This document shows positions 53,443 to 57,661 of a DNA stretch of 64,000 bases, piece by piece. Under the pieces are notes generated by a model. It worked only from the letters and a program-made list of their open reading frames with translations, was not told the origin of the DNA and ran no database searches. Position 1 is the first letter of the stretch, and each line of letters starts with the position of its first letter. Where the stretch lies: assembly GCF_900109365.1 (NCBI RefSeq), contig NZ_FNZR01000010.1:124001-188000 (forward strand). The letters run 5' to 3'. A program made the position numbers and the translations under genes. Source of the stretch: Parapedobacter koreensis (GTDB taxonomy: Bacteria > Bacteroidota > Bacteroidia > Sphingobacteriales > Sphingobacteriaceae).

Positions 53443-55746
<2,304 letters not shown>

Positions 55747-55841: not shown

Positions 55842-56573
55842 ATGATACCGCTGCAGCTAAATTATGCGAGCTTCTTGATGACAATGCTCACTTTATGCGT
55901 GTTATTCCTCCCTCAATTTTCCCTAGCGCAAGACCATGTGTTTGGCAGCTGGACCGCTTGGTTCAATAATGTGCGATTCAACCATAAATGGGGAATGAAC
56001 AATGATATACAGCTTCGCGGGGGAAGGGATTGGACCACCAACTCCCTCTTGCTGGTCAGGCCCGGTGTTAATTACTATGTAAACGCACAACAAACCGCCT
56101 CATTGGGTTACGCTACCACATTGGTCACGAATGAATTGGCAGCAAACAGCCGCAGGATTACCGAACACCGTATATGGCAACAATACATTATCAATAGTCC
56201 AATGCTGAATATCCCGGTACAGCACCGGTTTCGACTTGAACAGCGTTTCTTGCAACGACCAGACGAGAAGGCGTTTGCCAAACGCGCAAGGTACTTCATC
56301 CGGGGCATTATCCCAGTAAGCCAGCCACTGAAAACATCATTCCATCGGGGGCTATTCATGTCGCTCCAAAATGAGCTTTTCTTCAATATTCATAACCAAA
56401 AAGCGCTCAACGGCCGGTTCTTTGATCAAAACCGTGCTTATGCATCGCTCGGCTTCCGGTTTTCAGGAAAATATGATTTGGAAGCCGGATATATGAATCA
56501 ATTCTTGCTTAGAAACACCACGCCAAATAGCATGACCCATATCTTTCAGCTTGCTGGCTATACGCGGCTGTAA
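55842..56573 (+). CDS. DUF2490 family outer-membrane protein
   Basis: A 243-residue secreted beta-barrel protein with a signal peptide (about 29 residues). The sequence GSWTAWFNNVRFNHKWGMN and the RITEHRIWQQYI segment are typical of DUF2490, as is the final strand SMTHIFQLAGYTRL. Function unknown; often a small outer-membrane barrel. No partner gene is evident. Confidence 0.85.
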   Translation: MIPLQLNYASFLMTMLTLCVLFLPQFSLAQDHVFGSWTAWFNNVRFNHKWGMNNDIQLRGGRDWTTNSLLLVRPGVNYYVNAQQTASLGYATTLVTNELAANSRRITEHRIWQQYIINSPMLNIPVQHRFRLEQRFLQRPDEKAFAKRARYFIRGIIPVSQPLKTSFHRGLFMSLQNELFFNIHNQKALNGRFFDQNRAYASLGFRFSGKYDLEAGYMNQFLLRNTTPNSMTHIFQLAGYTRL

Positions 56574-56654
56574 AATATTCAGCTATTAATCAGCCAATTA
56601 CAACGATATCGAAAAATATTATTAATAAAATCTACTTGTTTAATAGACTTTATA

Positions 56655-56662
56655 TATATTTG
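56655..56662 (+). promoter_or_regulatory. Promoter -7 element of the cobA leader
   Basis: TATATTTG matches TAnnTTTG and lies 4 nt before ATG 56667 of the leader ORF, so transcription should begin at about that ATG. Confidence 0.55.
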
Positions 56663-56666
56663 TCCC

Positions 56667-56750
56667 ATGCACAAGACAAACCAGCATAAGGCTATTTCGG
56701 GTTATACCATGCACACATGTGCTAAGGCCATGTGTTATAGGCACCGTTGA
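56667..56750 (+). CDS. Putative 27-aa leader peptide of cobA (Cys/His/Met-containing)
   Basis: Twenty-seven codons from an ATG only 4 nt behind a -7 element. The product has two Cys (codons 18 and 23, in THTCAK-like and AMCYRHR context), four His and three Met. Its TGA (56748-56750) overlaps an RNA segment that can pair with the terminator's 5' arm. This is the arrangement of a classical attenuator leader. Translation is not proven. Confidence 0.5.
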   Translation: MHKTNQHKAISGYTMHTCAKAMCYRHR

Positions 56751-56780
56751 AGAAGCTTTACGCTGACTGCAAAGACACAG

Positions 56781-56820
56781 AAAAGCCTCTTCGACACGAG
56801 CAATATCGAAGAGGCTTTTT
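56781..56820 (+). terminator. Attenuator terminator in the cobA leader
   Basis: A 14-bp perfect stem (56781-56794 with 56806-56819) ending in a five-T run, 35 bp before the cobA ATG. The 5' arm can instead pair with 56749-56759, forming an antiterminator. An ordinary terminator of an upstream transcript is the alternative. Confidence 0.75.
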
Positions 56821-56854
56821 AATTAAACAAAAACATTTAAAAATAGGACAAGAG

Positions 56855-57661
56855 ATGGCAATAGAAGCAGCGGTGGAAAAACAACATGTCGACCCAAAAA
56901 TCACCCTTGTGGGGGCAGGGCCCGGCGATCCCGATCTCATCAGCTTCAAGGGAATCAAAGCACTAAAACAAGCGAATGTCATTTTATATGACGCATTGGT
57001 AGATGAGCGGTTATTGGAGTACGCCCCACAAGAAGCTATCAAGGTTTATGTAGGCAATCCTTCGGGTGATGAAAATTTCTCACAGGACGTGGTCAACCAA
57101 TTAATGGTGGACTATGCCCTGAACTTCGGTCATGTCGTAAGGCTCAAGGGAGGCGATCTGTTCGTTTTCGGCCGGGGCTATGAGGAGCTGGACTACGCGG
57201 CTTCATATAGCATTGAAACGGCTATCGTGCCGGGCATTTCCAGCGCCATATCTGTACCGGGGCTGCAAGGCATTCCGGTCACACACGGCGGCTTGAGCGA
57301 GAGCCTGTGGATACTCTCCGGCACGGATACTCAAGGCAACCTATCGCCTGAATTGAAAGATGCCGCCCGGAGCAAAGCTACGGTAGTCGTACTGCTTGGT
57401 TTTGATAAACTGCCCGAAATCGCAGCCATCTACCAAAACGTCGGCAAAGGAGGGCTGCCTGCCGCCGTCATTCAGAATGGTTCCATGAGCAATGAAAAGA
57501 CTGCTGTTGGATTGGTCAATACCATTGTAGAAGTGGCTGAAGAAAAAGGTATCGACAACACAGGACCTGTATTGCTGGTCTTCGGTTCGGCCGTAGCATT
57601 GCATCATGATTTTCAACGCATCAAGCAGTTTTTCGAACAGCATGAATACGGTGATCAATAA
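56855..57661 (+). CDS. cobA: Uroporphyrinogen-III C-methyltransferase
   Basis: A 268-residue SUMT. It uses SAM to methylate uroporphyrinogen III at C2 and C7, giving precorrin-2 for siroheme or cobalamin. The signature is ITLVGAGPGDPDLIS; VVRLKGGDLFVFGRG, VPGISSAISVPGLQGIPVTHGG and the C-terminal VLLVFGSAVAL are present. ATG 56855 follows the leader terminator. As a stand-alone SUMT without a dehydrogenase/ferrochelatase domain it needs partners encoded elsewhere. Siroheme serves sulfite reductase, which makes Cys-responsive control sensible. Confidence 0.92.
   Translation: MAIEAAVEKQHVDPKITLVGAGPGDPDLISFKGIKALKQANVILYDALVDERLLEYAPQEAIKVYVGNPSGDENFSQDVVNQLMVDYALNFGHVVRLKGGDLFVFGRGYEELDYAASYSIETAIVPGISSAISVPGLQGIPVTHGGLSESLWILSGTDTQGNLSPELKDAARSKATVVVLLGFDKLPEIAAIYQNVGKGGLPAAVIQNGSMSNEKTAVGLVNTIVEVAEEKGIDNTGPVLLVFGSAVALHHDFQRIKQFFEQHEYGDQ

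Follow-up and report, generated by a model that had tools for sequence, protein, structure and literature searches.

A probable cysteine-codon attenuator in front of cobA in Parapedobacter koreensis, and related leaders at cysI operons in Bacteroidota

The cobA gene of Parapedobacter koreensis is preceded by a short leader that very probably acts as a ribosome-mediated transcription attenuator, which would tie expression of this gene to the supply of charged Cys-tRNA and perhaps also of Met-tRNA. The leader lies in a window of 64,000 nt (the whole stretch of DNA that was analysed, contig NZ_FNZR01000010.1, positions 124,001–188,000, read on the forward strand) and was followed into relatives. 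It is a genuine and widespread feature, larger than the preliminary description of this DNA had reported: its parts are conserved in the genus, two helices that share one arm have both kept their pairing, and the distance between the Cys codons and the left arm of the antiterminator recurs over most units of a much wider set. The product of cobA acts in making siroheme, a cofactor that bacteria need for sulfate use, and genes of the cobA and cysI type make cysteine precursors. A broader proposal, quite possible and put forward here tentatively, is that of a largely unrecognised Cys/Met leader-peptide regulon, widespread in Bacteroidota and present in at least one MAG of the Chloroflexota, in which leaderless or near-leaderless ORFs, some of them in tandem, would sense Cys and Met jointly and control sulfate assimilation by terminator attenuation, with a mispair balancing the hairpins. 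If true, this would explain in concrete terms how sulfate assimilation and siroheme synthesis are adjusted in many Bacteroidota, would provide a natural attenuator that has to begin translation at the extreme 5' terminus of its RNA, in bacteria without Shine-Dalgarno signals, and would suggest that Cys leaders of sulfur genes have arisen, or been retained, in phyla far apart.

Direct reading of the window bore out the architecture that the preliminary description had given (a -7 element, a 27-codon ORF with two Cys codons, its TGA and a terminator), with every part of the leader at the coordinates reported there. On the forward strand, a palindromic operator-like element, AAATCTACTTGTTTAATAGACTTT (56628–56651), a putative protein-binding site, lies 3 nt upstream of the -7 promoter element TATATTTG (56655–56662), the sequence of which fits the TAnnTTTG consensus. 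The leader-peptide ORF (56667–56750) begins 4 nt past this element with an ATG at 56667–56669, has 27 codons (MHKTNQHKAISGYTMHTCAKAMCYRHR) and ends with the TGA at 56748–56750; codons 18 (56718–56720) and 23 (56733–56735) specify Cys, and the internal Met residues are Met15 and Met22. The left arm of the antiterminator (region 2, 56745–56760), delimited by duplex calculation and by pairing over nine leaders, overlaps the stop codon of the ORF and includes a segment, GAAGAAGCTTT (56749–56759), that matches the segment GAAGAGGCTTT (56808–56818) within the terminator 3' arm at 10 of 11 positions. The terminator 5' arm (region 3, 56780–56793, with AAAGCCTCTTC at 56782–56792), which folding and pairing indicate is also the right arm of the antiterminator, is followed by the terminator 3' arm (region 4) and its T-rich tract (56805–56823), seen in both sequence and folding. 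The presumed controlled gene, cobA or sumT (56855–57661), encodes a uroporphyrinogen-III C-methyltransferase that scores 222.3 bits against TIGR01469 (cut-off 185) and also lies above the cut-off of NF004790. A katG catalase/peroxidase gene (53455–55746) and then a DUF2490 gene (55842–56573) stand just upstream of the attenuator. Compared with Rfam, the leader came near the gathering score of no family, and the whole window returned only a tRNA.

The TAnnTTTG consensus of the -7 element is given in PMC7366714, and in F. johnsoniae candidate promoters were deemed probable when this element and the start were 4 or 5 nt apart (PMC6847099). Since the ATG follows TATATTTG by 4 nt, which is the F. 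johnsoniae spacing, the RNA should start at or beside the ATG, and the leader ORF in the window is probably leaderless. The same spacing of 4 nt was found in all eight genus leaders from the scan (the window and seven other genomes), and one of 9–11 nt in L161, L162 and L174. Only a minority of mRNAs in this phylum are leaderless (5.5% in F. psychrophilum, PMC9723704).

The 201 nt from 56660 to 56860 fold more strongly than shuffled sequences (z -5.18, with none of 200 dinucleotide shuffles as good). In the MFE structure, 56780–56793 and 56805–56818 form a 14-bp terminator stem that is followed by T-rich sequence. The left arm (56745–56760) can also pair with the 5' arm of this terminator, in a duplex of -16.7 kcal/mol (z -4.88; p 0.003 in a comparison with 300 dinucleotide shuffles), so the earlier claim that the 5' arm can pair with either segment stands. 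The further claim, that the position of the ribosome sets which of two exclusive forms appears, held when partial RNA was folded. When the RNA was folded to 56801 with a ribosome masked at Cys18 or Cys23, the antiterminator formed (-17.2 kcal/mol), while with the ribosome at the stop codon it was absent (-5.3); in full-length window RNA, however, the terminator won at each of the ribosome positions modelled (P 1.00). Because full-length RNA at equilibrium always prefers the terminator, the switch would have to be kinetic and decided during transcription, like that of other attenuators. Partial window RNA without any ribosome also favours the antiterminator, and a protecting 1:2 hairpin between codons 1–14 and the left arm reached p < 0.05 in 4/11 leaders (p 0.014 in the window) and is thus not general, so that termination in the absence of translation is no firm prediction.

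In the trp, his and leu attenuators of Proteobacteria, the position at which a ribosome halts decides between mutually exclusive terminator and antiterminator, and the cobA leader is proposed to work in a like manner. It has the corresponding features, i.e. clustered codons for the end product, a terminator, an antiterminator that shares an arm with it and a left arm placed to be free with the ribosome at Cys and covered with the ribosome at the stop. Transcription would start at or next to the ATG, so that a ribosome could begin on the leaderless ORF. When charged Cys-tRNA is short, this ribosome would halt at Cys18 or Cys23 with its front edge at about the start of 56745–56760, and this segment would pair with 56780–56793 to form the antiterminator as RNA polymerase moves past the terminator. 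With abundant charged Cys-tRNA, the ribosome would instead reach the stop codon and cover the left arm, and 56780–56793 would pair with 56805–56818 to form the terminator. Translation of the leader, stalling in it, its response to Cys and termination in it are what we infer from this layout. It differs from the classical attenuators in the amino acid concerned, in a start without Shine-Dalgarno signal and in the weak support for a 1:2 protecting hairpin, and the traits that would set it apart from the trp type are its probably leaderless start and the tandem forms present in some families.

SUMT orthologues were gathered from relatives and nine genomes of the genus were compared. Promoter, ORF, left arm and terminator precede cobA in eight of the nine, with no such unit in G008 at either cobA or cysI, and both the ORF and the alternative pairing put forward in the preliminary description are thus conserved in relatives. 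The leader peptides diverge widely within the genus (e.g. MQRINHYQSHFGHTQKMCTMAVCFRHS versus MKTRNQHKAVFNNNVCMCVQLMCYAHC), with Cys and Met retained. Codons were counted in ten cobA-type leaders, namely the eight of the genus and L021 (all nine from a scan for promoter, ORF and terminator that applied no Cys criterion) and L018 (recognised by eye). In-frame Cys codons number 22, against 12.3 in shuffles (p 0.0005), and internal in-frame Met codons 21, against 7.9 expected and with none of 2,000 shuffles having as many; the enrichment of Met codons in these leaders is no lower than that of Cys codons. ATG is found 21, 2 and 1 times by frame, and TGY 22 (frame 0), 21 (frame +1) and 3 times; since TGY is about equally frequent in frames 0 and +1, Cys codons alone are no proof of coding by frame. 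L014 and L016 have a single Cys codon each.

Pairing between the left arm and the 5' arm is kept in 111/126 cells over nine leaders (the eight of the genus and the C7 unit described below), and terminator pairing likewise in 111/126 cells over the same leaders. Changes that preserve pairs, on one or both sides, are seen at several positions (C-G to T-A, T-A to G-T, A-T to G-T and G-C). One antiterminator position is unpaired in 9/9 leaders, a C facing A, T or C there and in no case G, and it is this conserved mispair that makes the left arm of the window only a 10/11 copy of the terminator 3' arm; at the corresponding position the terminator is paired in 9/9. The mispair may serve to keep the antiterminator weaker than the terminator. 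In a cross-pairing control, arms of the same leader gave 12.3 pairs and arms of different genus leaders 11.5, which is nearly equal, so that covariation within the genus is modest and the stronger evidence for pairing comes from the wider set of units.

Two other units are present in the same genome and were found by their architecture rather than by DNA similarity; in a DNA search of this genome, the leader matched itself and otherwise gave only short hits, none with an E better than 0.48. Among the 30 of 137 TAnnTTTG-N4-ATG places that were examined in this genome, one further unit was seen. A SUMT paralogue is located on C14 in an apparent cysI-cobA-sirC-cysH-cysD-cysN operon (gene names assigned by eye from the ORFs, with the identity of cysI given by Pfam in the homologue L166), and this operon is headed by its own leader, ...MKQTNKLMAPCYMAHR, with a left arm at z -3.51. 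The third unit, MKAKTLKMNKSVAISYMSMCSMDH, on the minus strand of C7 (656713–656743, L286), has four internal Met and one Cys, precedes a DUF1684 gene and has a left arm at z -4.80. Its promoter contains a perfect palindrome, AAAGTATACTA-TTT-TAGTATACTTT. Across the genus, Cys-bearing cysI leaders were found in G000, G001, G002, G005, G006 and G007; the cysI region of G003 keeps promoter and terminator and has no Cys in the leaderless frame, and G004 and G008 have no such unit at cysI.

The promoters of the three units also appear to share an operator. The pattern TACT-N7-TANACTTT-N3..9-ATTTG, built from these very promoters, has three matches in this genome, each at such a leader, and none in a reversed control. 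Across the genus it occurs at nine places in five of the nine genomes, each of them in the promoter of cobA, of cysI or of the C7 unit. Two of these places, both at cysI (in G003 and G004), are without an intact Cys leader. It is absent from the other four genomes (G001, G002, G007 and G008), the first three of which nonetheless have leaders. An Rrf2-family protein is a candidate binder of the palindromic operator. Rrf2-family genes lie directly upstream of the leader in L165 (7305–7799, by Pfam) and L177 (2827–3264, by eye), both in reverse-complement numbering. An operator-like motif, recognised by eye, is also found with no attenuator in the cysI regions L192, L193, L045 (Sphingobacterium humi) and L046 (Parapedobacter sp.).

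A search with the cysI N-terminus gave matches in 75 of 296 genomes of the class, and 72 upstream regions were examined (leaving out G588, G454 and G483, and with only 464 nt for L211) for a terminator preceded by a short ORF in which a stretch of eight codons contains two or more Cys. This arrangement is present in 33/72 cysI regions, one of which (L184) was judged spurious, against 34/1,221 decoy windows, taken mostly from Bacteroidota loci; with at least three clustered Cys the figures are 26/72 and 4/1,221. Terminators as such are present in 53/72 cysI regions and 410/1,221 decoys, and when only terminator-bearing windows are compared a Cys-cluster ORF is found in 33/53 and 34/410, respectively. 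The 33 positive regions span 15 of 25 families, while 39/72 fell below the criterion, three of these (L185, L186 and L188, named by hand) having weaker leaders. Over the whole set, at least one unit was seen in 62/116 regions, before removal of spurious ones. A scan within 600 nt of cobA at 50 loci (L039–L088) gave none, the leaders found at these loci sitting at the operon head. The attenuator that the preliminary description had placed before cobA is supported for the cobA leader itself, but in relatives the design mainly heads the cysI operon and not a lone cobA.

Leaders from this survey include those of Portibacter marinus (L086; MNDITFKAGTIRIAMMCCCCCMMNDSSGSDL) and of a Saprospiraceae MAG (L084; MKKINRQMEMCCCPCCCCTAGIFSRGA; left arm p 0.008), a poly-Cys ORF with terminator in Fulvivirga kasyanovii (L083; MRQALNNVIFCMCCICCKHVKE; left arm p 0.166, not significant) and the leader of Pedobacter miscanthi (L041; MNFNFIPKQLTAKQIMCCCCKTQ; left arm p 0.322, not significant). 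Tandem units, each with its own terminator, precede cysI at ten loci in six families (L198, L199, L203, L209, L219, L234, L239, L240, L241 and L246). In an Anaerolineae MAG of the Chloroflexota, tandem poly-Cys units (L102, 953–1262) precede a cysH-like gene identified by eye, with left arms at p 0.034 and 0.006, which suggests either an independent rise or a wider spread of this design.

The position of the left arm was assessed over all units, with a terminator as a scan condition for every unit except that of the window. The unit set, to which seven leaders not listed by the Cys-cluster scan had been added by hand, numbered 85, or 83 after removal of two exact duplicates, and ten more were removed by hand as spurious to give 73 curated units. 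A test for the left arm that started 12 nt before the stop codon misses second tandem units, in which the arm is inside the ORF, and the final test ran from the last clustered Cys. The left arm has a mean z of -2.58 in the 73 curated units (48 with p < 0.05, 25 not) and of -2.29 in all 83 (49/83 with p < 0.05), near-identical relatives having stayed in the set, so that combined p-values overstate independence. Counted from the initial nucleotide of the last Cys codon in the cluster, it starts at +9 to +24 nt in 67/73 curated units, with a mode of +15 in a search that itself began at +9, and in 70/83 units overall, against 54% expected from shuffles. In the window, it spans +12 to +27 from the Cys23 codon, with the stop at +15. 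With Cys in the A site, a ribosome would extend to about +15, and the left arm is located where the front edge of a Cys-stalled ribosome would be. In several second tandem units the ORF crosses the arm, with the stop beyond it, so that ribosome passage itself would open the arm.

How far Cys is the signal has to be weighed against the abundance of Met. Besides the enrichment of internal Met in the ten cobA-type leaders, Met makes up 68 of the 146 residues next to Cys in the 41 leaders with at least three clustered Cys, and some leaders have more Met than Cys (four internal Met and one Cys in the C7 leader, three Met and one Cys in L016), all of which would fit the same attenuator with methionine, or general Cys and Met starvation, rather than cysteine alone as its main signal. 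We regard this as distinctly unlikely, since Cys forms the longest runs (five consecutive codons in L209 and L248, against at most three for Met, in L236), the distance between the left arm and the last clustered Cys is steady and, from general pathway knowledge, the controlled genes make cysteine precursors. It is rather unlikely that a repressor at the palindromic operator, e.g. of the Rrf2 family, is the main control and the leader a minor modulator. This would be consistent with an operator-like palindrome at all three units of this genome and at the G003 and G004 cysI promoters that have no intact Cys leader, with the Rrf2 gene next to the L165 cysI leader and with the similar motif, judged by eye, at four loci without attenuator (L045, L046, L192 and L193), but it leaves the ORF, the Cys runs and the two helices unexplained, and a repressor and an attenuator are compatible layers.

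The strong structure of the leader might instead point to a conserved RNA acting as a riboswitch or a protein-binding leader, in which the ORF is incidental and the ATGTG repeats are an RNA motif, as the near-equal TGY counts in two frames would allow. The uneven distribution of ATG by frame (21, 2, 1), the leaders of distant families, which are unrelated by eye save for Cys/Met codons and terminator arms, and the lack of an Rfam match make this very improbable. It is more improbable still that the terminator merely ends the transcript of the co-directional DUF2490 gene, which stops at 56573, 207 nt upstream of it, and plays no role in cobA control: a promoter stands between that gene and the terminator, the arrangement recurs at the head of the cysI operon in different surroundings, and the left arm that matches the terminator is kept.

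The attenuator proposed here for cobA is not without parallel, as Cys-codon attenuators are already known in Actinobacteria and Rhodobacterales. The uORFC-8-2 motif, a Cys-codon attenuator with terminator found before cysS in Rhodobacterales (PMC8632094), also combines a short ORF with two neighbouring Cys codons, an intrinsic terminator with U-run and a proposed ribosome-mediated attenuation. It belongs to Alphaproteobacteria and cysteinyl-tRNA synthetase, whereas the present leaders belong to Bacteroidota and to cobA and cysI and, compared with the motif as outlined in that source, are distinguished by an ATG at the presumed transcription start, Met codons, some tandems and a shared operator-promoter. 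In mycobacteria, leaderless polycysteine sORFs mediate Cys-responsive attenuation (Canestrari 2020, as cited in PMC9031893 and PMC13236596), and they resemble the present leaders in their contiguous Cys codons and in an ORF that is, here presumably, leaderless. These sORFs control translation of the downstream gene (PMC9031893), whereas an intrinsic terminator and an antiterminator are found here; translation control without a terminator hairpin, the mycobacterial trait, does not describe the window leader, which has a terminator. According to PMC1262725, cys leaders of Mycobacterium have no conserved terminator hairpins, and the Cys leader peptides of Actinobacteria are without obvious terminators.

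Outside Proteobacteria and Actinobacteria, a 2010 survey knew of no leader-peptide system before its own case in Firmicutes (PMC2965389), and few attenuators were found described for Bacteroidota. Unspecified sORFs reminiscent of leader peptides were noted in 5' UTRs of B. thetaiotaomicron (PMC7366714), and F. psychrophilum shows signs of leader-peptide attenuation upstream of operons for amino-acid biosynthesis, candidates from the same phylum for which the relevant section of the paper names no cysteine or siroheme gene (PMC9723704). A literature search gave no description of a Cys attenuator for cobA or cysI in Bacteroidota, a weak absence given that many subscription papers were beyond its reach.

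Poly-Cys ORFs of a different kind came from a search for the pattern MCCCC, which matched in 72 of 197 genomes, with 13 matches in the control. Two of 30 such loci were unplaced, and by eye all but L299, L300, L303, L304, L311, L313, L316 and L317 look like chance. Short poly-Cys ORFs (e.g. ...MCMCCCCMC, ...MCCCCCCC) stand before metY-like genes in L299, L300 and L313, before metX-like genes in L303 and L304 and before a PhyH-like gene in L316 and L317 (gene names by eye). At these loci no intrinsic terminator was seen by eye in the approximately 110 nt shown, and such terminator-free poly-Cys ORFs are possibly a translational or Rho-type version of the design.
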